A DNA stretch of 27,624 nucleotides from the IMG/VR virus record IMGVR_UViG_3300037847_006625, positions 1 to 27,624 of that record; one strand, 5' to 3'. This document shows positions 2,860 to 27,624 of the stretch, piece after piece. A program made the translations under genes and the position numbers. Within the stretch, counting starts at the first letter, position 1. The number at the start of each line of letters is the position of its first letter. The stretch comes from a virus. The notes below the pieces were generated by a model. That model saw only the letters and a list, made by a program, of their open reading frames with translations. It was not told the DNA's origin and did no database searches.

Positions 2860-3240
2860 ATGAAACATATTTTATTAGTGTTACTCATGACTGTAACTTT
2901 AAATTGTTATAGTCAAGAGATAATTGAAATCCCTCAGGAAGAACTTAATGAGTTCTTTTTAGCTATTGATACTCTTAAAGAACAAGATTCAATAAAAACT
3001 ACTTTAATTTATGATTTAGAGTCACAAATTAGAAACTATGAAATGTTATCTAAACAAGATAGTATAATTTTAAATTACAGGCTCCAACAAGTAAAAATTC
3101 TTAATGAACAAATTCAGTTGTATGATGATAGATTAAAAGTTGTAGATAAATGGTATAAAAAACCATGGGTTGGAGTTGTAGGAGGGGTAGTAGGTACTCT
3201 AATTACAATCCATGTAATAGATTACTCATTACCTAGATAA
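2860..3240 (+). CDS. exported coiled-coil protein with C-terminal membrane segment (spanin-like topology)
   Basis: The ATG at 2860 is chosen because it places a signal peptide (hydrophobic residues 4-14) at the N-terminus; the in-frame ATG at 2809 would bury it behind a charged extension inside the preceding gene. This gives 126 residues. The signal ends in CYSQE, typical of Bacteroidetes signal peptidase I sites; Cys16 makes a poor lipobox (TLNC), so lipidation is uncertain. A helical, probably coiled-coil central part is followed by a glycine-rich hydrophobic segment near the C-terminus (WVGVVGGVVGTLITIHVI). A signal peptide plus coiled coil plus C-terminal membrane helix is the topology of unimolecular spanins. 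The stop overlaps the terminase ATG by one base. Confidence 0.6.
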   Translation: MKHILLVLLMTVTLNCYSQEIIEIPQEELNEFFLAIDTLKEQDSIKTTLIYDLESQIRNYEMLSKQDSIILNYRLQQVKILNEQIQLYDDRLKVVDKWYKKPWVGVVGGVVGTLITIHVIDYSLPR

Positions 3241-4817
3241 TGGCAGATAAGGATTTAAAAAAAATAATAAGACAAGAGTATTTAAAATGTGCTAAGGATC
3301 CTGCTCATTTTATGAAAAAATACTGTTTTATACAACACCCACAAAGAGGTAGAATCCAATTTGGTTTATATCCATTTCAAGAAAAATCATTACATTTATT
3401 TAGAGATAATCCCTACTCAATTATTCTTAAATCTAGACAGTTAGGTATTTCTACCTTAACGGCTGGATATTCTCTATGGTTAATGTTATTTCATAAAGAT
3501 AAAAACGTACTTTGTATTGCAACAAAACAAGAAACAGCCCGTAACATGGTTACGAAAGTTAAATTTATGTATGATAATTTACCTTCTTGGTTGCAAATTA
3601 AAGCAGAAGAAAATAATAAATTATCACTTCGGCTTAGTAATGGATCAATAATTAAAGCAACATCTGCAAGTAGTGATGCTGGTAGATCAGAAGCAGTATC
3701 TTTACTACTAATTGATGAGGCAGCTTTTATTGATAATATTGGAGAGATTTGGGCCTCATCACAACAAACATTAGCAACTGGGGGTGGAGCTATAGTATTA
3801 AGTACACCTTATGGTACTGGAAATTGGTTTCACAAAACATGGGTTAATGCTGAATCAGGTGAGAATCAATTCTTACCAATTAAATTACCTTGGTGGGTAC
3901 ATCCTGAAAGAAATCAAGAATGGAGAGATTCACAAGATTCACTACTAGGTGATCCTAGATTAGCAGCCCAAGAATGTGATTGTGATTTTAGTACTTCAGG
4001 TGATATAGTATTTTACTCTGAGTGGATTGAATTTATTAAAGAATCTACTATTCAGGATCCAATGGAAAGAAGAGGTGCAGACCAAAATTTATGGGTTTGG
4101 GAAGCAGCTGATTATTCTAGAGAATATATGGTAGTAGCTGACGTAGCTAGAGGTGATGGTAAAGACTTTTCTGCATGTCATGTAATGGATATTGAAACTA
4201 ATACACAAGTAGCAGAGTATAAAGGACAATTACCACCTAAAGAATTTGGTTATTTTTTAACTGGTTTAGCTACAGAGTATAATAATGCTATGTTAGTAGT
4301 TGAAAATGCTAATATTGGTTGGGCAGCATTAGATGCAATTAGAGAAAGGGGTTATAGAAATTTATACCAATCTCCAAAATCAGATGCACTTACAGCAGAG
4401 TCATTTTTAAGAGTATATGAAGGTAATTCTGAAATGGTTCCTGGTTTTACTATGTCAATGAAAACAAGACCACTTTGTATTAATAAATTTAGAGAATTTG
4501 TTGGTGATAAATCAGTAACTATTCGTTCAAAACGTTTATTAGAAGAAATGAAAGTATTTGTTTGGAAAAATGGAAGACCAGAAGCTCAAACAGGCTACAA
4601 CGATGACTTGGTTATGTCATTTGGGATTGGTATGTTCCTACGTGATACTTCATTGAAGTTTCAACAACAAAGTTTAGATATGGCAAGAGCAGCATTAAGC
4701 GGTATAAAAAGTAATAAATCAACACAAACAGGTGCATTTACTGGCGCAAGTAGGGTAGCAAATCCATATGAAGTAAAAATAGATGGAAAAACCCATGACA
4801 TAAAATGGTTATTATAA
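3240..4817 (+). CDS. 17: terminase large subunit (T4 gp17-like)
   Basis: 525 residues, the packaging motor that drives DNA into proheads and cuts concatemers. The N-terminal ATPase has an adenine-binding YPFQ (44-47), a Walker A-like KSRQLGIST (64-72, the same lysine- and arginine-bearing variant as T4 gp17) and Walker B LLLIDEAAF with D159-E160. The coupling motif region (VLSTPYGTGNWF) follows. The C-terminal RNase H-fold nuclease shows its metal-binding acids: D301 (VADVARGDGKD), the ENANIGW segment, and D455-D456 (YNDD). Length is somewhat shorter than T4 gp17. All key residues are present. It starts one base inside the previous stop (TAATG). Confidence 0.95.
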   Translation: MADKDLKKIIRQEYLKCAKDPAHFMKKYCFIQHPQRGRIQFGLYPFQEKSLHLFRDNPYSIILKSRQLGISTLTAGYSLWLMLFHKDKNVLCIATKQETARNMVTKVKFMYDNLPSWLQIKAEENNKLSLRLSNGSIIKATSASSDAGRSEAVSLLLIDEAAFIDNIGEIWASSQQTLATGGGAIVLSTPYGTGNWFHKTWVNAESGENQFLPIKLPWWVHPERNQEWRDSQDSLLGDPRLAAQECDCDFSTSGDIVFYSEWIEFIKESTIQDPMERRGADQNLWVWEAADYSREYMVVADVARGDGKDFSACHVMDIETNTQVAEYKGQLPPKEFGYFLTGLATEYNNAMLVVENANIGWAALDAIRERGYRNLYQSPKSDALTAESFLRVYEGNSEMVPGFTMSMKTRPLCINKFREFVGDKSVTIRSKRLLEEMKVFVWKNGRPEAQTGYNDDLVMSFGIGMFLRDTSLKFQQQSLDMARAALSGIKSNKSTQTGAFTGASRVANPYEVKIDGKTHDIKWLL

Positions 4818-4821
4818 TATT

Positions 4822-4829
4822 TATAAATA
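4822..4829 (+). promoter_or_regulatory. T4-type late promoter box TATAAATA
   Basis: Exact TATAAATA between the terminase stop and the portal ATG, whose A is only 16 nt after the first T. With T4-like spacing the portal mRNA would have a leader of only a few bases. Confidence 0.7.
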
Positions 4830-4837
4830 AATAAAAC

Positions 4838-6748
4838 ATGGCAGATACAGGTTTATTTTCAAGGTTAAGACGATTATTTTCTACAGACGTAATTATTCGT
4901 AATGTAGGGGGCAATCAACTTAAAGTTTTTGATGTTAACAAGATACAACAGTCAGGTGAAATTGAAACAAATACTTTAATAGATAGATTTAATAGAATAT
5001 ATTCAAATTCATCAACATCATTATACGGACAACAATCACATTTTAATTACCAATATTTAAGACCACAATTATACTCAGAGTATGATTCAATGGATACAGA
5101 TGCTATTATTGCATCTGCATTAGATATTATAGCAGATGAGTCTACACTTAAAAATGATATGGGTGAAGTATTACAAATTAAATCTGCTGATGAAGATATA
5201 CAAAAAATCTTATATAATTTATTTTATGATGTTTTAAATATTGAATTTAATTTATGGCCTTGGGTTAGAAATTTAGCTAAATATGGTGATTTTTTCTTAA
5301 AGTTAGAAATTGCAGAAAAATTTGGTGTTTATAATGTTATTCCTTACACAGCATTTCATATTGAAAGATTAGAAGGTTTAGATAAAGATAATCCAACTGA
5401 AATTCAATTTAGATTCTCCCCAGATGGTGTATCTGCTTCTGATTATGGATACTATAATGTACCAAATCAAGGCACATTCCCAGATGCTATTATATTTGAT
5501 AATTATGAAATGGCTCACTTTAGATTATTAACAAATATGAATTTCTTACCTTATGGTAGATCATATATTGAGCCAGCTAGAAAATTATTTAAGCAGTATG
5601 TGTTAATGGAAGATGCAATGTTAATTCACAGAATTGTACGTGCACCTGAAAAACGTATTTTCTATATGAATGTTGGAGCTATTCCTCCAAATGAAGTAGA
5701 TGCGTTTATGGAAAAAACATTAAGTAAACTTAAACGTACTCCTCACGTAGATGAAAAAACTGGTGAGTATAATTTAAGATATAATATGCAAAATCTACTT
5801 GAAGATTATTACATCCCAGTTAGAGGTAATGATGCAAGTACTAAAATTGAAAGTGCAAATGGAATGCAGTGGGATGGTATTGCTGACGTTGAGTACTTAA
5901 GAGATAAATTATTTGCAGCTCTTAAAGTACCAAAAGCATTTATGGGTTATGATGAAAATACAGATGGTAAAGCTACACTAGCTGCTCAAGATATTAGATT
6001 CGCTCGTACAATTGAAAGAATACAAAGAATTGTAGTTTCAGAATTATATAAAATAGCATTAGTTCATTTATATACTCAAGGTTATAAAGATGAACAATTA
6101 TCTAATTTTGAATTATCACTAACAACACCTTCAATTATTTATGATCAAGAAAGAGTAGCATTAATGAAAGAAAAAATGGATTTAGCTGCTCAAATGGTTG
6201 AAACAAATATGTTCCCAACAGACTTCGTTTACGATCATCTATTCCATTTAAGTGAAGACCAATATGATGACTTTAGAGATTTAGTTAGAGAAGATGCTAA
6301 ACGTAAGTTTAGAATAGCTCAAATTGAAGCTGAAGGAAATGACCCAGTTGAAACAGGCCAGTCATATGGTACACCTCATGATTTAGCTACATTATATGGT
6401 AAAGGAAGAATGTATTCAAATCCTGGTGATATACCTCCACATAATGAGGATAACCAATATATAGGTAATAGAAAAACAGTTTTAGGAAGACCAAAAGAAA
6501 AAGCATCTAAGCGAAATACTCAAGATGATAATTTTGGAAAAGATAGATTAGGGGCAAAAGGTATGAAACGAGATTACAATGATCCTAAAAAAAGTTCTTT
6601 AGCATTAGAAAGTAATGCAAATTATATAAAGCATCAATCTATGTTAAAATCAATTCCAAGTGAATTTACACCTGGAAAAAAGTTAGTATTTGAGCAGGAT
6701 AACGCAAAAAGTTCGTTACTTGACGAATCAAATATTAAGGAACAATAA
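4838..6748 (+). CDS. 20: portal vertex protein (T4 gp20-like)
   Basis: 636 residues; twelve copies form the ring through which DNA enters and leaves the head. Similarity to T4-like portals runs through most of the length: an N-terminal SALDIIADEST region, the WPWVRNLAKYGDFFLKL segment, IERLEG, an RLLTNMNFLPYGRSYIEPARK block, RAPEKRIFYMNVG, and the KVPKAFMGYDENTDGKATLAAQ region leading to the crown. The C-terminal ~120 residues are hydrophilic and low in recognisable motifs. The gene follows terminase directly and has its own late promoter box. In T4 the sheath and tube genes 18 and 19 lie between genes 17 and 20; here they do not. Confidence 0.93.
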   Translation: MADTGLFSRLRRLFSTDVIIRNVGGNQLKVFDVNKIQQSGEIETNTLIDRFNRIYSNSSTSLYGQQSHFNYQYLRPQLYSEYDSMDTDAIIASALDIIADESTLKNDMGEVLQIKSADEDIQKILYNLFYDVLNIEFNLWPWVRNLAKYGDFFLKLEIAEKFGVYNVIPYTAFHIERLEGLDKDNPTEIQFRFSPDGVSASDYGYYNVPNQGTFPDAIIFDNYEMAHFRLLTNMNFLPYGRSYIEPARKLFKQYVLMEDAMLIHRIVRAPEKRIFYMNVGAIPPNEVDAFMEKTLSKLKRTPHVDEKTGEYNLRYNMQNLLEDYYIPVRGNDASTKIESANGMQWDGIADVEYLRDKLFAALKVPKAFMGYDENTDGKATLAAQDIRFARTIERIQRIVVSELYKIALVHLYTQGYKDEQLSNFELSLTTPSIIYDQERVALMKEKMDLAAQMVETNMFPTDFVYDHLFHLSEDQYDDFRDLVREDAKRKFRIAQIEAEGNDPVETGQSYGTPHDLATLYGKGRMYSNPGDIPPHNEDNQYIGNRKTVLGRPKEKASKRNTQDDNFGKDRLGAKGMKRDYNDPKKSSLALESNANYIKHQSMLKSIPSEFTPGKKLVFEQDNAKSSLLDESNIKEQ

Positions 6749-13540: not shown

Positions 13541-13569
13541 AAAACCCCGCATTAGCGGGGTTTTTTTTT
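13541..13569 (+). terminator. strong rho-independent terminator after major capsid gene
   Basis: Perfect 10-bp stem AAAACCCCGC (13541-13550) with GCGGGGTTTT (13555-13564), a 4-nt loop ATTA, and a run of nine T. It separates the capsid unit from the metabolic cassette that follows. Confidence 0.92.
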
Positions 13570-13600
13570 CTTTGGATACCTAGTTAGTAATTATTATATT

Positions 13601-13608
13601 TATTAACG
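13601..13608 (+). promoter_or_regulatory. weak late promoter-like box TATTAACG
   Basis: Shares the ATATTTAT context of the other boxes but departs from TATAAATA. It lies 31 nt before the ATG at 13632 and just after a strong terminator, where a promoter is needed. Confidence 0.3.
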
Positions 13609-13631: not shown

Positions 13632-14546
13632 ATGAAAGAAACTCCCTCGCAGTTGCCAATTCAAAGTTACGTAATGAACTTTCCTCATACATTTTCAACA
13701 GATGATCCTAATAATATCTGGATGAAAGAAATGTCAAATGAAGAATTACAAATTAACAGACCAAAAGCATATAAACAATTTATGGACCTCTATAATTTTA
13801 TAGCAGGTCAATCATTAGTACATCTACTCCCAGCGGAAGGTAATTTTCAAGATTTAATTTATGTAGCAAATTTAGGTTTACAATTACCTCATATTTGTGA
13901 TGAAAATCATATTTTACTTTCAAATTATACTTCACCACCAAGGCAAGGTGAAGAGTATGTAGGTGAAAAATTCTTTAATCAAATGGGTTATAAAACTCAC
14001 ATTTCTCCTCATAAATGGGAAGGTGAAGCTGATATAAAATATTTAAGTGATAATGTTTATATAGGTGGTTATGGTATCCGTTCCGATATTGAAACTTATA
14101 AATGGATGGAAGAAAACTTTGATATGAATATAATTAAAGTTAAAATGGTAGATGAATATATGTACCATTTAGATTGTAGTATTTTCCCGTTAAATCCAAA
14201 TGCAACTATGGTTTGTACAGAATTATATGATAAATCAGAGTTAGCACAAATAAACAAATATACAGATATAGTAGACATAGATGTAGAAGATTCTATGTAT
14301 GGAATGGCCAACTCAGTTAGATTAGGTAATATGATTTTATGTGCTTCAAACATTTCAGAACTTAAAAAATCAGATGAGTTTTATGAAGGTGAAAAACATA
14401 AAATTGAATCACTAGAAAAAATATGTTCACAACAAGGTATGGAACCTGTAATATTTAATTTATCAGAATATATGAAATCAGGAGCTATGTTATCTTGTAT
14501 GGTAATGCATTTAAATAGAGTTGATCATTTTAAAACCCTATTATAA
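13632..14546 (+). CDS. DDAH/arginine-deiminase-like hydrolase (guanidino-modifying enzyme superfamily)
   Basis: 304 residues covering the whole beta/alpha-propeller fold of the COG1834 dimethylarginine dimethylaminohydrolase/amidinotransferase group. Catalytic elements are in order: D in FQDLIYVAN (residues about 73-81), a PPRQGEE segment, E130 in WEGEAD, GGYGIRSD (residues about 143-150), H179 in YHLD and the nucleophile C289 in MLSCMV. All three expected catalytic residues (Glu, His, Cys) are kept, so it is probably active. Such enzymes hydrolyse or transfer from guanidino groups of arginine, methylarginines or agmatine; the substrate here cannot be told. Its stop shares one base with the next start codon, so it is coupled to the decarboxylase gene. 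Confidence 0.82.
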   Translation: MKETPSQLPIQSYVMNFPHTFSTDDPNNIWMKEMSNEELQINRPKAYKQFMDLYNFIAGQSLVHLLPAEGNFQDLIYVANLGLQLPHICDENHILLSNYTSPPRQGEEYVGEKFFNQMGYKTHISPHKWEGEADIKYLSDNVYIGGYGIRSDIETYKWMEENFDMNIIKVKMVDEYMYHLDCSIFPLNPNATMVCTELYDKSELAQINKYTDIVDIDVEDSMYGMANSVRLGNMILCASNISELKKSDEFYEGEKHKIESLEKICSQQGMEPVIFNLSEYMKSGAMLSCMVMHLNRVDHFKTLL

Positions 14547-15313
14547 TGGCTGAAAAATTAGAAGATTGGTTAAATGGTGAAGTAGCAGAATTGTCAAAAT
14601 TATCAGTTGGGGAATTAAGCAATACTTTCTTTTTTAGGGATCCCTTAAGATCAACTTATATAGATCATGAACATTTTTACAGCCCAGCAGATGGAACTAT
14701 TTTATATCAAAAAGTAGTTCAACCTGGTGAGCAAGTTTTAGAAATAAAAGGTATTGATTACACTATTCAAGATGTAATGGGTGATAGTGATTATGATAAA
14801 CCTTCTTTAGTTATTGGAATATTTATGTCGTTTTATGATGTACACATCAATAGAATTCCTTATGGAGGAGTTTTAAATTATAAACGTTTAGAACCTATTG
14901 AGTCTACAAATAAGCCAATGTTAGCGGTAGAGAAGGATATTTTAAATAAAGTAATCAATCCAAATAACATGGCATACTTAAAGTATAATGAAAGAATGTC
15001 TAACCAAGTGTATGTTCCTTCTTTAAATTACACATACCATATAATACAAATAGCAGATGAAGATGTAAACGTAATAGCCCCTTTTAAACAACAAGGGGAT
15101 CTTTGCGCTCAAAACGAAAGATTCAGTTTGATTAGATGGGGGTCACAAGTAGATTTAGTTCTACCTCTGGATTCTAGATATAATTTTGAGACCATTCTAG
15201 ATGATACAATGCATGTAAATGCTGGTCTTGATAAATTAGTAAAAATTAAAGAAACAAATAATGCCATCAAACCATCACGAGGACGAAATATTCAGACAAA
15301 AACGAATAGTTAA
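14546..15313 (+). CDS. psd: phosphatidylserine decarboxylase-type pyruvoyl enzyme
   Basis: 255 residues. The family converts phosphatidylserine to phosphatidylethanolamine, using a pyruvoyl group made by self-cleavage. Family features: FFRDPLR (residues 29-35), YSPADG with D49, DVHINRIPYGG with H100, and the cleavage site WGSQVD with S200. D49, H100 and S200 match the Asp-His-Ser triad of bacterial enzymes. The WGS-Q-VD site resembles the short soluble (archaeal-type GSRVD) branch rather than the LGST of E. coli. Cleavage would give a beta chain of 199 and an alpha chain of 56 residues. No membrane segment is seen. The gene overlaps PhoH by 53 nt. Confidence 0.85.
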   Translation: MAEKLEDWLNGEVAELSKLSVGELSNTFFFRDPLRSTYIDHEHFYSPADGTILYQKVVQPGEQVLEIKGIDYTIQDVMGDSDYDKPSLVIGIFMSFYDVHINRIPYGGVLNYKRLEPIESTNKPMLAVEKDILNKVINPNNMAYLKYNERMSNQVYVPSLNYTYHIIQIADEDVNVIAPFKQQGDLCAQNERFSLIRWGSQVDLVLPLDSRYNFETILDDTMHVNAGLDKLVKIKETNNAIKPSRGRNIQTKTNS

Positions 15314-15995
15314 AAACCCAATAAAATTTAAATTACAATTAAATGAAGAACAAAAACAAGCTAAAGCAAAAATATTAATTAATACTTTAACAGTATTAGC
15401 TGGAAAAGCAGGATCAGGAAAAACATTATTAGCATGTAATGTAGCTTTAGATGGGTTATTAAGAAGACAATATTCAAAAATTATAATTACAAGACCAACT
15501 GTTTCAAAAGAAGAAATAGGATTTCTACCAGGAGATTTGAGAGAAAAAATGGATCCCTGGATTCAACCTATTTACCAAAATATGTATTCACTTTATGATA
15601 AAGTAAAGATAGAAAAATTAATTGAAGATGGTAAAATTGAAATTGTACCTTTAGCATTTATGAGAGGTAGAACGTTTTTAGATTCATGTATAATTGTAGA
15701 TGAAGCACAAAATGTTACTCATGAACAAATGGAAATGATTTCAACTCGTATAGGTTTAAGATCAAAAATGATAGTATGTGGTGATGATCATCAAGTAGAT
15801 TTAAGAAGTAAAGCTGATTCTGGATTTAGATTTTTATATGCAGCAGCAAGAAAAATTAAAAATATGACAGGAATAACTTTAAATAAAAACCATAGGGATC
15901 CTATTGTTGATGATTTAATTGTAGTTTATGAAGAAGCTGAAGAAAGGGGTATATTTAAGGGTACATCTGGGAGTAGTGGAAGATCCCGAAAATAA
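15261..15995 (+). CDS. phoH: PhoH-like ATPase
   Basis: 244 residues. Walker A is GKAGSGKT (48-55), Walker B is CIIVDEAQN (D147-E148), and the family blocks ITRPTVSKEEIGFLPGD, PLAFMRGRTF and GDDHQVDL are all present, as is the NHRDPIV C-terminal motif. PhoH proteins are cytoplasmic ATPases, frequent in marine phages; their role is unsettled (RNA metabolism or phosphate stress). The ATG lies 53 nt inside the decarboxylase gene. It is used because the next in-frame ATG lies beyond Walker A and because the N-terminal residues look genuine. No Shine-Dalgarno is seen, so translation may be coupled to the upstream gene. Confidence 0.92.
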   Translation: MPSNHHEDEIFRQKRIVKNPIKFKLQLNEEQKQAKAKILINTLTVLAGKAGSGKTLLACNVALDGLLRRQYSKIIITRPTVSKEEIGFLPGDLREKMDPWIQPIYQNMYSLYDKVKIEKLIEDGKIEIVPLAFMRGRTFLDSCIIVDEAQNVTHEQMEMISTRIGLRSKMIVCGDDHQVDLRSKADSGFRFLYAAARKIKNMTGITLNKNHRDPIVDDLIVVYEEAEERGIFKGTSGSSGRSRK

Positions 15996-16022
15996 ATAAT
16001 TGGGAATAATTTTTTATATATT

Positions 16023-16030
16023 TATAACAA
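16023..16030 (+). promoter_or_regulatory. weak late promoter-like box TATAACAA
   Basis: Lies in the same ATATATTTATAA context as the box at 6761, 19 nt before the ATG at 16042. A second TATAAAT string directly touches the start codon and is too close to act. Confidence 0.4.
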
Positions 16031-16041
16031 AAATATAAATT

Positions 16042-16503
16042 ATGGCATCAACATTAAATCCAACGAAATTTCAAATAAAAATTAAGGAGGAGCATATTGT
16101 TAAGGATATTAAAACTCTTAATGAAACATTTTTTACAATTAATAATGTAACTAATGTAGATAGAAGGTTTGTTACTATACCTCAAACAACATCTATTGCT
16201 TTAATTGACGTTAATGGTGTAGACCCAGGTGCAGGTACTTTCCCTTCCAGTAGTATGAAATACGTAAGGATTACTAATCTTGATAACTCAGCCTCTTTGG
16301 CAGTTAATTTTACATCATCTGATGATGGTGGTGGAGCTAAATATTGGACTATGCATTGTTTACCTACATCATCTATAATGTTTTCAAGTCCTGATGTGAC
16401 AAGTAGTTTATTTGATGGAACTTTTGGTCAAGATATAGAATTTATATCTGTTTATTCTTTAAGTTCTAGTATTGATGTTGAGTACGTAGTAGTTAACGCT
16501 TAA
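16042..16503 (+). CDS. small beta-rich protein, probable virion component
   Basis: 153 residues, mostly predicted beta strands with Ser, Thr and Asp loops (KYVRITNLDNSASLAV, DIEFISVYSLSSS). No signal, membrane or catalytic motif is seen. The composition and position directly before the neck genes suggest a structural or decoration protein, possibly a head or neck accessory. Not recognised as any named T4 protein. Confidence 0.65.
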   Translation: MASTLNPTKFQIKIKEEHIVKDIKTLNETFFTINNVTNVDRRFVTIPQTTSIALIDVNGVDPGAGTFPSSSMKYVRITNLDNSASLAVNFTSSDDGGGAKYWTMHCLPTSSIMFSSPDVTSSLFDGTFGQDIEFISVYSLSSSIDVEYVVVNA

Positions 16504-22068: not shown

Positions 22069-25000
22069 ATGGCATTAGATAAAACTAAAAAATCAAATAG
22101 GTTACTCCAGAGTAGAAGATATACAATGGAGTCAAGTACGGATGCACAAGAAGCATTCACACGAGTACTTGACCTCAATGCTACTGAAATCTACATAGAT
22201 CAAGCAGAAATTCCTGCTACTGGGTTACCATATTCTGGTAGTAGTCAAAATGAACAATTTGTTTTATCTGGAAGTGCTAATTTATTAAAATATTACCATC
22301 AATTTCAATTAACACCTTCAAATGTTGTAAATGGTAGTAAAACAGAAGTATTCTTCTTTATATCAGCTTCGGGACATGATCCAACAACAGCAGTAACACC
22401 TCAAATTATACAATCAGGTCAACAAGGAAGTTTTATTTCACCAAAATATTCAGATCCTTCTTTAACAAATGCAGATACAGAAGATGCAACACCTGGTTAT
22501 AATGTAACTATTAGAGTAAATGGTACTAAACAAAATGCTGCAAATTATCAATTTGATTATAAAACTGGTGTTATACAATTTAATGACTCAGATGTAGCAC
22601 CTACTACAGGTGATACGGTAAGATGTTCGGCTTATCAATATGTAGCTAGAACATTAAATGATGGATTAGGTGCTAGTGGAGCAGGTTTTCCATTTTCAGG
22701 ATCAGCTCAAATAACAGGATCTGATGATGGTGGATTTGCTGTAACAGGTAGTAGTACATTTGATATAAGTGGAACAGGAAAAGAATTTCAAATAAAATCT
22801 GCACCAGTTCAAGATTTTCCTTTTGTATTAACATATGCAACAGGATCAGGTAAAATAGGATATGTTGAAGTATCAAGTGGTACTAGTGGTATAGCAGGTT
22901 CTAGTGGTACAGCTGGTCAATCAGGTACTTCTGGTTCTTCAGGTTCTTCAGGTTCAAGCGGATCTTCTGGTTCTTCTGGTGTAGCAGGAGCTTCAGGATT
23001 AAGTAATACAGCAGGATCCTCAGGTTCATCAGGTGAAGATGGTACTTCAGGACAAGGAGGAACTAATGGTTCAAGTGGTGCTTCAGGTACTTCAGGTTCT
23101 TCAGGTTCTTCAGGTACTAGTGGAGCTACAGGTACAACTGGATCTTCAGGTGAAAGTGGAGCAAGCGGAACTAACGGTTCAAGTGGTTTAAGTAGAACTA
23201 CAGGTACATCTGGTTCCTCAGGTACTTCAGGTTCAAGTGGTGGTAATGGTACTTCTGGAACAAGTAGAACATCAGGTTCATCAGGTACAACAGGTTCATC
23301 AGGTTCAGCAGGTAATGCAGGAGCAAGTGGGTTAAGTAATACATCAGGTTCAGCAGGTTCAAGTGGTGAGGATGGTACTTCAGGACAAGGTGGTACAAAT
23401 GGTTCAAGTGGGGCTTCAGGAACTAGTGGATCATCAGGTACATCAGGATCAAGTGGTGAAGCAGGAGCTGCAGGTTCATCAGCTTCAAGTAATACTTCCG
23501 GTACTTCAGGATCTAATGGTTCAAATGGTGAAGCAGGAGGAGCTGGATCTAGTGCATCAAGTAACACTTCTGGTTCTTCAGGTACATCAGGATCAAATGG
23601 TGAAGATGGAGCAGCAGGAGCTAGTGCATCAAGTAATACTTCAGGTACTAGTGGTTCAAGTGGTTCTTCTGGTAACGCAGGTGCTGCTGGTTTAAGTAAT
23701 ACTTCTGGTTCAAGCGGTTCATCTGGAGAAGATGGTACTTCAGGACAAGGTGGTACAAATGGTTCAAGTGGAGCTTCAGGTACAAGTGGATCTTCAGGTT
23801 CAAATGGATCCTCAGGTGCAACAGCAACAGCTGGTCAAAGTTCATCAAGTGAAACTTCAGGTACAAGCGGATCAAATGGTTCTAATGGAGCTGAAGCTAC
23901 TGCAGGTGGAAGCACAGCAAGTGCTACTTCAGGTTCATCTGGTACATCAGGTTCAAATGGAGAAGCAGGTGCAGCAGGAGCTAGTGCATCAAGTAACACT
24001 TCAGGTACTTCAGGATCTAATGGTTCAGCTGGTAATGCAGGAGCTGCTGGTTTAAGTAACACCTCAGGTTCAAGTGGTTCATCAGGTGCAGACGGTACTT
24101 CAGGACAAGCCGGTACTTCAGGTTCTGCAGGTACAGCAGGAGCATCAGGTTTAAGCAATACTTCAGGATCTTCAGGAACTAGTGGTTCATCAGGAGCAGC
24201 TGGTAATGCAGGTGAAAGTGCATCTTCAAATACTTCAGGTTCATCAGGTACTTCAGGTTCTAATGGAGAAGCGGGAGCTGCTGGTTCAAGTGCTTCTTCA
24301 AATACAAGTGGTACTTCAGGTTCAGCAGGTTCAAATGGAGAAGCAGGTGCAGCCGGTTCATCAGCTGCAAGTAATACTTCAGGTACTTCTGGTTCTAGTG
24401 GTTCAGCAGGAAATGCAGGTGCTGCTGGTTTAAGCAATACATCAGGTTCTTCAGGTTCATCAGGTGCAGACGGTACATCAGGCCAAGCTGGTACTAGTGG
24501 TTCAGCAGGTACAGCAGGAGCTTCAGGATTAAGTAATACATCAGGTTCATCAGGTACATCAGGATCAAGTGGTGCGGCAGGAGCAGCAGGTGAAAGTGCA
24601 TCTTCAAATACTTCAGGATCTTCAGGTACAGCGGGTTCAAATGGTGAAGCGGGTGCTGCAGGGTCTTCAGCTTCAAGTAACACATCAGGAACATCAGGTT
24701 CAGCAGGTTCAAATGGTGAAGCAGGTGCAGCCGGTTCATCAGCTGCAAGTAATACTTCAGGTACTAGTGGTTCAAGTGGTTCTTCTGGTAATGCAGGAGC
24801 AGCTGGTTTAAGTAACACTTCTGGTTCTTCAGGTTCAAGTGGTGCAGATGGTACTTCAGGTCAAGCTGGTACTTCAGGATCTTCAGGTACAGCAGGAGCA
24901 TCAGGATCAAGTAATACTTCTGGTTCATCTGGTACATCAGGTTCAAGTGGTGCAGCTGGAGAAGCAGGAGCAAGTGCATCTTCAAATACTTCAGGTTCAT

Positions 25001-27624
25001 CTGGTACATCAGGTTCAGCAGGTTCAAGTGGTGAAGCAGGGGCAGCAGGTTCAAGTGCAGCAAGTAATACATCAGGAACATCAGGTTCGGCAGGTTCAAA
25101 TGGAGAAGCAGGAGAAGCAGGTTCAAGTTCAGCAAGTGCGACTTCAGGATCTTCTGGTACTAGTGGTTCGTCAGGAACAGAAGCAACTGCAGGTGCTAGT
25201 ACGGCATCAGCAACTAGTGGATCATCAGGTACATCAGGTTCAAATGGTGAGGCAGGAGCTGCTGGTTCATCGGCTTCAAGTAACACATCAGGAACATCAG
25301 GTTCAACAGGTACTAGTGGTTCAGCAGGTAATGCAGGAGCATCAGGCTTAAGTAACACTTCTGGTTCTTCAGGTTCATCAGGTGCGGATGGAACTTCAGG
25401 TCAAGCTGGTACTAGTGGTTCATCAGGTACAGCAGGAGCTTCAGGTTCAAGCAATACATCAGGTTCATCAGGTACTTCTGGTTCAACAGGAAATGCAGGT
25501 AATGCAGGTGCTAGTGCATCTTCAAATACAAGTGGTTCATCAGGAACTTCAGGTTCGAGTGGTGAAGCAGGAGGAGCTGGTTCAAGTGCTTCAAGTAACA
25601 CATCAGGAACATCAGGTTCGGCAGGTTCAAATGGAGAAGCAGGAGAAGCAGGTTCTAGCGCAGTAAGTAGTACTTCAGGTACTTCAGGTTCAAATGGTTC
25701 AAATGGTGCTGCAGGTGAAGCAGGTGCTAGTGCAGCAAGTAATACATCAGGTACTAGTGGTTCTAATGGTTCATCAGGAGCAGCTGGTAATGCAGGTGCA
25801 AGTAATACATCAGGAACATCAGGTTCATCAGGTTCAAATGGTGAAGGAGGAGCAGCAGGTTCAAGTGCTTCAAGTAATACATCAGGTACTAGTGGTTCAA
25901 ATGGTTCATCAGGAAATGCAGGAGCTTCAGGATTAAGCAATACATCAGGTTCAGCTGGTTCAAGCGGTAATGATGGAACTTCAGGACAAGGTGGTACTTC
26001 AGGTTCTAGTGGTGCTTCTGGAGGATCAGGAACAAGTGGATCTTCAGGTACTTCAGGTTCAAGTGGTGCAGCAGGAGCAGCAGGTGAAAGTGCTTCAAGT
26101 AATACTTCAGGTACTAGTGGTTCAAGTGGTTCAAATGGTGAAGCAGGAGCAGCAGGAGCAAGTTCAGCAAGTGCAACTTCAGGATCTTCTGGTACATCAG
26201 GTTCAAGCGGTGCAGAGGCAGATGCAGGTACAAGTTCAGCAAGTGCAACATCAGGTTCAACAGGTACTTCAGGTTCAAGTGGTACAGAAGCAGAAGCAGG
26301 TGCTAGTACGGCATCAGCAACTAGTGGATCATCAGGTACATCAGGATCAAGTGGTGAAGCAGGTGCTGCAGGTTCATCAGCTTCAAGTAATACTTCAGGT
26401 ACTAGTGGTTCTAATGGTTCAAATGGTGCTGCGGGTAATGCTGGAGAAAGTGCAAATTCAGGTACTTCAGGAACAAGCGGATCAAATGGTTCAAATGGAG
26501 AAGCAGGAGGAGCTGGATCTAGTGCAGCAAGTAACACTTCTGGTTCATCAGGTACATCAGGTTCAAGTGGAGCAGCTGGTGGATCAGGTGCAAGTAAAAC
26601 TTCAGGTACTTCTGGTTCTACAGGTTCATCAGGTAATGCAGGGGCGTCAGGATTAAGTAATACATCAGGTTCAGCAGGTTCATCTGGTAATGATGGTACT
26701 TCAGGACAAAGTGGTACTTCAGGTTCAGCTGGAGCTTCAGGTTCAAGTAATACATCAGGATCTTCAGGAACTAGCGGTTCATCAGGAGCAGCTGGAGAAG
26801 CAGGAGCAAGTGCATCATCAGCTACTTCAGGAACAACTGGATCAAGTGGTTCAAGTGGTGAAGCAGGTGCAGCAGGTTCTTCAGCTTCAAGTAATACTTC
26901 AGGTACTTCAGGATCTAGTGGTTCTAATGGTGAAACAGGAGCAGCAGGTTTAAGTAGGGCTTCAGGTACTTCAGGTTCATCAGGTACAAATGGTTCTTCA
27001 GGTGTAACAGGTTCAGCAGGAGCAAGTAAAGCTTCAAATACAAGTGGATCTTCAGGTACGTCAGGTTCTAATGGTGCTGATGGAGAAGCAGGATCTTCAG
27101 CTTCAAGTAAAACTTCAGGTACTTCTGGTTCAACAGGTACTTCAGGTTCAAGTGGTGATGCTGGTAACTCAGGTCAAAGTTCAGGATCAGGTACATCAGG
27201 AACAACAGGATCAAACGGATCCTCAGGTGCAGAAGCAGATTCAGGTTCAAGTACAGAAAGTGGAACTTCAGGTACTTCAGGATCAAATGGTTCTAGTGGT
27301 GAAACAGGTGGTTCAGGTTTAAGTAGAGCTTCAGGTACTTCGGGATCAAGCGGAACAAATGGTTCTTCAGGTGTAACAGGTTCAGCGGGTGCAAGTAAAG
27401 CTTCAAATACAAGTGGTTCATCTGGTACTTCAGGTTCTAATGGTGCAGATGGTGAAGCAGGTTCTTCAGCTTCAAGTAAAACTTCAGGTACTAGTGGTTC
27501 AAGTGGTTCAAGTGGAGTAGATGGAGAAGCAGGAACAAGTGGTAATGCAGGAACTTCTGGAGCAAGTGCAACATCAGGTTCAGTTGGTTCAAGTGGTAAT
27601 AGTGGTACTTCAGGTAATGCTGGT
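22069..27624 (+). CDS. giant collagen-like fibre protein (3' end outside window)
   Basis: The frame opens with ATG at 22069 and runs without a stop to the right edge: 1852 codons. Residues 1-270 are a globular N-terminal part: ARTL, TGVIQF and FDYKTG segments resemble the beta-sandwich N-domains of marine tail fibres and may bind the baseplate. From residue 271 (22879) the protein is an almost unbroken series of Gly-X-Y triplets, about 527 in the window, using mainly Ser, Thr, Ala, Asn and Glu, with no proline or aromatic residue seen. Glycine is replaced at regular places by Ala, Asn, Lys or Arg (GSSASSNTS, GLSNTS), while the triplet register is kept. It probably forms a long shaft; the receptor-binding end lies outside. 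Confidence 0.88.
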   Translation, partial: MALDKTKKSNRLLQSRRYTMESSTDAQEAFTRVLDLNATEIYIDQAEIPATGLPYSGSSQNEQFVLSGSANLLKYYHQFQLTPSNVVNGSKTEVFFFISASGHDPTTAVTPQIIQSGQQGSFISPKYSDPSLTNADTEDATPGYNVTIRVNGTKQNAANYQFDYKTGVIQFNDSDVAPTTGDTVRCSAYQYVARTLNDGLGASGAGFPFSGSAQITGSDDGGFAVTGSSTFDISGTGKEFQIKSAPVQDFPFVLTYATGSGKIGYVEVSSGTSGIAGSSGTAGQSGTSGSSGSSGSSGSSGSSGVAGASGLSNTAGSSGSSGEDGTSGQGGTNGSSGASGTSGSSGSSGTSGATGTTGSSGESGASGTNGSSGLSRTTGTSGSSGTSGSSGGNGTSGTSRTSGSSGTTGSSGSAGNAGASGLSNTSGSAGSSGEDGTSGQGGTNGSSGASGTSGSSGTSGSSGEAGAAGSSASSNTSGTSGSNGSNGEAGGAGSSASSNTSGSSGTSGSNGEDGAAGASASSNTSGTSGSSGSSGNAGAAGLSNTSGSSGSSGEDGTSGQGGTNGSSGASGTSGSSGSNGSSGATATAGQSSSSETSGTSGSNGSNGAEATAGGSTASATSGSSGTSGSNGEAGAAGASASSNTSGTSGSNGSAGNAGAAGLSNTSGSSGSSGADGTSGQAGTSGSAGTAGASGLSNTSGSSGTSGSSGAAGNAGESASSNTSGSSGTSGSNGEAGAAGSSASSNTSGTSGSAGSNGEAGAAGSSAASNTSGTSGSSGSAGNAGAAGLSNTSGSSGSSGADGTSGQAGTSGSAGTAGASGLSNTSGSSGTSGSSGAAGAAGESASSNTSGSSGTAGSNGEAGAAGSSASSNTSGTSGSAGSNGEAGAAGSSAASNTSGTSGSSGSSGNAGAAGLSNTSGSSGSSGADGTSGQAGTSGSSGTAGASGSSNTSGSSGTSGSSGAAGEAGASASSNTSGSSGTSGSAGSSGEAGAAGSSAASNTSGTSGSAGSNGEAGEAGSSSASATSGSSGTSGSSGTEATAGASTASATSGSSGTSGSNGEAGAAGSSASSNTSGTSGSTGTSGSAGNAGASGLSNTSGSSGSSGADGTSGQAGTSGSSGTAGASGSSNTSGSSGTSGSTGNAGNAGASASSNTSGSSGTSGSSGEAGGAGSSASSNTSGTSGSAGSNGEAGEAGSSAVSSTSGTSGSNGSNGAAGEAGASAASNTSGTSGSNGSSGAAGNAGASNTSGTSGSSGSNGEGGAAGSSASSNTSGTSGSNGSSGNAGASGLSNTSGSAGSSGNDGTSGQGGTSGSSGASGGSGTSGSSGTSGSSGAAGAAGESASSNTSGTSGSSGSNGEAGAAGASSASATSGSSGTSGSSGAEADAGTSSASATSGSTGTSGSSGTEAEAGASTASATSGSSGTSGSSGEAGAAGSSASSNTSGTSGSNGSNGAAGNAGESANSGTSGTSGSNGSNGEAGGAGSSAASNTSGSSGTSGSSGAAGGSGASKTSGTSGSTGSSGNAGASGLSNTSGSAGSSGNDGTSGQSGTSGSAGASGSSNTSGSSGTSGSSGAAGEAGASASSATSGTTGSSGSSGEAGAAGSSASSNTSGTSGSSGSNGETGAAGLSRASGTSGSSGTNGSSGVTGSAGASKASNTSGSSGTSGSNGADGEAGSSASSKTSGTSGSTGTSGSSGDAGNSGQSSGSGTSGTTGSNGSSGAEADSGSSTESGTSGTSGSNGSSGETGGSGLSRASGTSGSSGTNGSSGVTGSAGASKASNTSGSSGTSGSNGADGEAGSSASSKTSGTSGSSGSSGVDGEAGTSGNAGTSGASATSGSVGSSGNSGTSGNAG
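24058..24813 (+). repeat. two tandem 378-bp super-repeat copies, a third starting at 24814
   Basis: Copies at 24058-24435 and 24436-24813 each encode 126 residues arranged as blocks of 11, 8, 8, 8 and 7 triplets, each block opening with Asn-Thr-Ser. By hand the two copies differ at three residues. The next block set begins at 24814 and soon diverges in length. Confidence 0.88.
25189..25238 (+). repeat. 50-nt exact direct repeat, copy 1
   Basis: Identical to 26296-26345, 1107 nt downstream, in the same frame (369 codons apart). Both encode Ala then GASTASATSGSSGTSG. Confidence 0.85.
26296..26345 (+). repeat. 50-nt exact direct repeat, copy 2
   Basis: Exact match of 25189-25238; points to a fairly recent duplication or gene conversion within the fibre gene. 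Confidence 0.85.
26932..27480 (+). repeat. 369-bp spaced repeat near right edge
   Basis: A module encoding GETG, GLSRASGTSG, GTNGSSGVTGSAGASKASN and GADGEAGSSASSK starts at 26932 and again at 27301, a 369-nt step (123 codons). Protein is nearly identical; DNA differs at several synonymous sites. Confidence 0.85.

Follow-up and report, generated by a model that had tools for sequence, protein, structure and literature searches.

We identify a pair of adjacent genes in a T4-like phage that probably provides a previously undescribed route from arginine to putrescine, a DNA-binding diamine. The pair lies in a stretch of viral DNA of 27,624 nt (IMG/VR record IMGVR_UViG_3300037847_006625, hereafter the window) and consists of ADH, encoding an arginine dihydrolase-like guanidino-group enzyme, and PSD, encoding a soluble pyruvoyl enzyme of the phosphatidylserine decarboxylase type. 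In the proposed pathway, ADH would hydrolyse arginine to ornithine, two NH3 and CO2. The PSD-type protein would cut itself at Gly199-Ser200 to generate a pyruvoyl group, and the cut enzyme would decarboxylate ornithine to putrescine; PSD would then be an ornithine decarboxylase derived from the phosphatidylserine decarboxylase fold. Expressed late from the kind of promoter box that precedes virion genes, the pathway would supply putrescine that neutralises DNA during replication and packaging, and perhaps aids its condensation, with ammonia as a by-product. We favour, at slightly better than even confidence, such a soluble two-enzyme pathway from arginine through ornithine to putrescine, operating late and used on DNA.

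The window represents part of a T4-like phage and includes a terminase (position 3240), a portal-like gene (4838) and the major capsid protein gp23 (11839; Gp23 profile, E = 5e-77). A scan located an intrinsic terminator after gp23, at 13541-13564 on the plus strand, with a 10-bp stem, a 4-nt loop and a T run (AAAACCCCGC-ATTA-GCGGGGTTTT-TTTTT). It is the top scorer among six terminator-like sites (2.3 expected from shuffles), and in the gp23-ADH gaps of relatives a terminator stands in the same position with a compensated stem, both sides being altered. A late-type promoter box (TATATTTATTA, 13595-13605, plus strand) lies 37 nt ahead of the ADH start, and TATATTTATA/TATATGTATA upstream of ADH are also retained in relatives. 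ADH (13632-14546, 304 aa), PSD (14546-15313, a 255-aa pro-enzyme) and a PhoH-like ATPase gene (15261-15995, 244 aa; PF02562, E = 3.2e-62) follow on the same strand, before the next late-type box (TATATTTATAA, 16017-16027, plus strand), which is placed 25 nt ahead of the gene at 16042. The open reading frames bear out the initial annotation of three overlapping genes behind a strong terminator: ADH and PSD share 1 nt (TAATG), and PSD and PhoH share 53 nt.

The promoter-like box described in that annotation also proved to be real. TATTTATWA occurs seven times in the window, and six of these copies (at 2159, 4818, 6757, 13597, 16019 and 19253) are placed 19-35 nt ahead of a start codon (binomial P = 2e-9). 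The relative G001 (158 kb) has 28 copies, of which 17 fall in start-proximal zones (P = 3e-19), and several copies precede tail and baseplate genes. TATTTATWA thus likely serves this phage group as its late promoter. Since the block opens with its own late-type box, we propose that the ADH/PSD product is made late.

All three genes share a transcription unit, yet the functional unit is ADH and PSD. Their 1-nt overlap is retained in 71 of 74 distinct T4-like phage pairs from IMG/VR, and translation of the two is probably coupled via TAATG. The PSD/PhoH spacing, in contrast, takes 19 different values across 69 loci, and some relatives carry a PhoH that is just 46-50% identical, with ADH and PSD at roughly 75-89%. 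Because both the spacing and the PhoH type vary, PhoH cannot be regarded as a constant member of the block, and the three-gene cassette originally described reduces to its first two members. PhoH is judged a bystander; a role as pathway partner was rejected on account of the variable junction and PhoH type. Median dN/dS is 0.10 for ADH, 0.076 for PSD (computed with the overlap region excluded), 0.14 for PhoH and 0.27 for gp23, and this comparison of relatives revealed no internal stops. Relaxed selection, which had been named as an observation that would count against the pair, was not seen, dN/dS being about 0.1 or lower for both enzymes.

Sequence and model comparisons suggest that ADH works like an arginine dihydrolase of the ArgZ/AgrE type. 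ADH has its best sequence matches among the arginine dihydrolases ArgZ and AgrE, with hits to NCBIfam NF052232 (E = 1.5e-25) and PDB entry 6lrf (E = 1.7e-16). Its 89.9 bits against NF052232 are far under the equivalog cut-off of 450, hence the wording "works like", and the predicted activity is best called arginine dihydrolase-like. An AF2 model (pLDDT 87) matched ArgZ (PDB 6jv0) with a Z score of 34.0, followed by AstB (27.2), DDAH (26.1), arginine deiminase (26) and agmatine deiminase (21). DDAH, amidinotransferase, AstB and arginine deiminase were rejected as identities of the hydrolase, their structural scores being lower than that of ArgZ. The domain calls of the initial annotation are therefore kept for the Psd-type decarboxylase and for PhoH (PF02562, 210 bits against a cut-off of 27), whereas "DDAH-like" is better replaced by arginine dihydrolase-like (Z 34 against 26).

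The ArgZ active-site positions that could be mapped, D65, N71, R90, E118, R139, H168, D170 and C264 in ArgZ numbering, are all found in the window ADH. These eight positions are kept in 27-28 of 28 ADH homologues; L208, a distant ADH, carries Ser in place of N71. In ArgZ, N71 and C264 mutants trap substrate or intermediate (PDB titles). ADH thus shares its fold and active-site residues, including N71 and C264, with ArgZ and the N-terminal domain of AgrE (6jv0, 6lrf), at about 22-23% identity across 265 residues. It differs from them in being a stand-alone protein of 304 aa that lacks the ornithine cyclodeaminase part, in having a decarboxylase partner and in scoring under the NCBIfam cut-off.

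The steps could also run in another order, with PSD acting first, on arginine, and the resulting agmatine being hydrolysed towards putrescine by the ADH-family enzyme or by an agmatine deiminase. Arginine decarboxylases exist among the pyruvoyl enzymes derived from AdoMetDC (PMC9992855), and on one IMG/VR contig, L291 (IMGVR_UViG_3300021182_000126, 3134-5726), the genes run ADH, an agmatine-deiminase-family gene (PF04371, E = 1.7e-24) and PSD in that order. In structure, however, ADH matches arginine dihydrolase (Z 34) more closely than agmatine deiminase (Z 21). ADH also retains R90 and R139 in 28/28 homologues, and these residues presumably hold the carboxylate of the substrate, a group that agmatine lacks. 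We therefore consider the agmatine-first order unlikely and take ornithine as the probable product of ADH.

PSD matches PF02666 (E = 5.3e-24; 85.4 bits against the curated Pfam cut-off of 22), and its best score against the NCBIfam equivalog for phosphatidylserine decarboxylase is 78.9 bits, under the cut-off of 183. It resembles the short phosphatidylserine decarboxylases (PF02666, PRK05305 group) in the motifs FFRDPxR, PADG, DVHxNR and GS(R/Q)VD and in being a predicted pyruvoyl enzyme, and the catalytic residues D49, H100 and Gly199-Ser200 are present in 34/34 sequences. The Gly199-Ser200 codons (ggg tca, 15140-15145, plus strand) align with the Gly-Ser site at which E. coli PSD is cut to give a pyruvoyl group (PMC7952604), from which we infer that the phage protein would cleave itself in the same way. 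D171 and E129 are likewise invariant in all 34 sequences, D171 standing where other PSDs have G, A or T, and PSD carries an acidic motif, IADxDV, against IAGLVARRI in the short phosphatidylserine decarboxylases. An assignment of E129 to the phosphate-binding site of E. coli PSD was dropped, as the alignment puts N122 nearer to that site.

Unlike the short phosphatidylserine decarboxylases, PSD is linked to ADH and has no hydrophobic N-terminus. No N-terminal hydrophobic stretch was found across 29 sequences (peak KD19 at most 0.45), compared with a peak of 2.17 in L194, a short PSD of the membrane type; the KD19 test has less power for long PSDs, whose membrane binding is by amphipathic helices (PMC7952604). 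The PSD copies also form their own clade, with support of 100/99, apart from other PSDs. A further PSD-family gene, whose Pfam match is much stronger, is present in 16 of the 20 operon-bearing genomes, which makes it probable that house-keeping lipid synthesis is not the task of the operon copy.

These features bear directly on a role in lipid metabolism, in which PSD would make phosphatidylethanolamine from phosphatidylserine or act on a related lipid, ADH would scavenge nitrogen and the two genes would share regulation only. Such a role would agree with the PF02666 match above cut-off and with the presence of E. coli PSD among the top structural matches (Z 9.8), and a MATE carrier found by the bacterial operon might in principle transport lipid. 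It is at odds with the separate clade, the lack of a membrane-type N-terminus, the second PSD-family gene and the retention of the ADH partner in unrelated phages and bacterial phyla, and we judge it quite unlikely. Of the amines or amino-lipids initially envisaged as substrates, an amino-lipid head group is the less likely, given the missing hydrophobic N-terminus and the additional PSD-family gene.

The PSD model is of moderate quality (pLDDT 78), and its structural matches are moderate as well. Unrelated phosphocarrier folds outscore both E. coli PSD and PsiD, so the fold search by itself would not settle the identity of PSD; cleavage at the Gly-Ser site in the solved PSDs depresses their scores. 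PsiD (PDB 8x4q and 8zia, named L-tryptophan specific decarboxylase) resembles PSD in its PSD-type fold and comparable structural score (Z 9.1), and works on a free amino acid. It differs in its much larger chain, in an identity of 8-11% and in having no link to arginine metabolism.

The retention of an ornithine-making enzyme together with a soluble decarboxylase of the amino-acid type points to putrescine as the end product. Putrescine is packed with T4 DNA. If nitrogen salvage were instead the purpose, ADH would be central, releasing two NH3 per arginine, and PSD would drain ornithine or act on an unrelated amino acid. According to PDB titles, ArgZ belongs to the ornithine-ammonia cycle of cyanobacteria, but the conservation of PSD equals or exceeds that of ADH and its site residues are invariant, which argues against an accessory enzyme and makes nitrogen salvage, in our view, very unlikely.

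The putrescine pathway has a precedent in pyruvoyl enzymes of another fold, derived from AdoMetDC, which gave rise to phage and bacterial ornithine decarboxylases; PsiD, as a PSD relative named for tryptophan, is a second precedent. Li and colleagues reached the AdoMetDC-derived enzymes by similar reasoning, and in phages they reported neither an arginase nor an ornithine decarboxylase dependent on PLP (PMC9992855, PMC10407285). Like PSD, these AdoMetDC-derived ornithine and arginine decarboxylases are phage or bacterial genes with a pyruvoyl cofactor, leading to putrescine or agmatine; unlike PSD, they belong to another fold and family and lack an arginine dihydrolase partner (PMC9992855, PMC10407285). 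If the proposed activities are correct, PSD would add an ornithine-decarboxylase fold to those of Li and colleagues (PMC9992855), and phages would be able to synthesise putrescine themselves, needing neither arginase nor a PLP enzyme.

The view that a hydrolase and a pyruvoyl-type decarboxylase form a real functional pair is strengthened by their recurrence, without PhoH, in unrelated phages and in bacteria; absence of the pair elsewhere, which had been named as counting against it, was not seen. ADH and PSD are adjacent in Bacteroides phage DAC16 and its kin. About 40 records of Campylobacter phages carry both genes; in NCTC12673 they are unlinked, about 42 kb apart, and in phages of this type each has its own annotation, amidinotransferase for ADH and phosphatidylserine decarboxylase for PSD. 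The absence of any phage precedent, as first supposed, thus does not extend to the individual genes, and our literature search found no paper linking the two. The two proteins fall in the families PHROG 12759 and PHROG 12670, both listed as of unknown function. The proposed pathway, if true, would explain these two families, which are carried by many marine, Campylobacter and Bacteroides phages, and would caution that viral genes labelled "phosphatidylserine decarboxylase" or "amidinotransferase" by the automatic annotation of catalogues may be assigned to the wrong metabolism.

Further phage-like loci were recovered from metagenomic records. Contig L291 also carries a YqaJ recombinase, and a 956-aa ORF with no Pfam match lies ahead of its three-gene cassette. 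A 121-kb contig of a Verrucomicrobiota MAG (C341 of G549; L293/L208) has ADH followed by PSD and looks like phage DNA; its ADH, L208, has an added zinc-ribbon-like N-terminus. L170 (NZWA01000018.1), a contig of a Flavobacteriales MAG, shows protein-level identity to the ADH and PSD of the window; it is probably phage DNA binned into that MAG, hinting at a flavobacterial host. Xanthomonas phage phiXF1 has a lone DDAH/arginine dihydrolase-like gene (L161:4977-5795, 23% identity), and no match to PSD was found in this phage.

In bacteria, one genome scan returned 22 cellular PSD relatives at 44-53% identity. ADH lies directly downstream of PSD at 20 of these loci, the reverse of the phage order, and was not found nearby at one KSB1 locus and one broken locus. 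The operons are distributed over at least six phyla, namely Verrucomicrobiota, Actinomycetota, Campylobacterota, Pseudomonadota, Latescibacterota and Eiseniibacteriota. The arrangement is rare, with one further match among 395 Actinomycetota and one among 386 Verrucomicrobiota, the latter being the phage-like contig C341. A plasmid search gave just PSDs at 27-30% identity, which were taken as ordinary PSDs. We suggest tentatively, and at somewhat less than even confidence, that the PSD-family fold is new for ornithine decarboxylation, that it is paired with an arginine dihydrolase in a system common to unrelated phages and sporadic bacteria of several phyla, that the two genes have moved together by gene transfer, and that phages use the system late.

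The genomic surroundings of the operon are also in line with a polyamine product, as is the agmatine-deiminase-family gene between ADH and PSD on L291. A PotD-type polyamine-binding protein is encoded near seven operon loci and a MATE exporter at 13; few lineages, Verrucomicrobiota for the most part, contribute these neighbours, so common ancestry might account for them. In each of nine Verrucomicrobiales genomes (G008, G012, G013, G016, G017, G019, G021, G023 and G024) one full-length PF02784 protein is encoded, LysA-sized at about 440 aa. Full-length OKR_DC, arginase/agmatinase and any other arginine or ornithine decarboxylase were not found in these nine genomes; as the operon-bearing genomes are mostly MAGs, such absences are weak. 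Several other operon-bearing bacteria encode one or two further PF02784 proteins, some of which are SpeA-sized, and OKR_DC is present in two Saccharothrix with the operon; in such bacteria the putative pathway would be redundant. AdoMetDC (AdoMet_dc, PF02675) was not detected in the seven phage genomes or records searched, which implies that no classical spermidine step would follow putrescine in these phages. The search for spermidine synthase with PF01564 matched many large fused proteins, as did PF03435 in most genomes.

Finally, the pair might serve DNA hypermodification, with PSD decarboxylating ornithine or another amino acid after its attachment to a base. QueC was present in 8/8 large marine relatives searched, and G001 has ORFs resembling, by eye, QueD, QueE and GTP cyclohydrolase. 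QueC was not found, however, in the pair-bearing records of DAC16, NCTC12673, L290 and L291 (the L290 and L291 records are perhaps fragments), and the bacterial pair forms an operon with transport genes; a hypermodification role is, on this evidence, exceedingly unlikely. An obligate tie to 7-deazaguanine modification was rejected on the same four records, in which QueC was not found. The marine T4-like relatives themselves likely have 7-deazaguanine DNA modification. The QueC neighbourhood of G001 (L162-L169, about 88-95 kb) also includes a TGT/DpdA-like ORF. Elsewhere in the window, positions 22069-27624 are occupied by a very long ORF of collagen-like Gly-Ser-Thr repeats, which continues past the window end and whose homologue in G001 is 2467 aa long.
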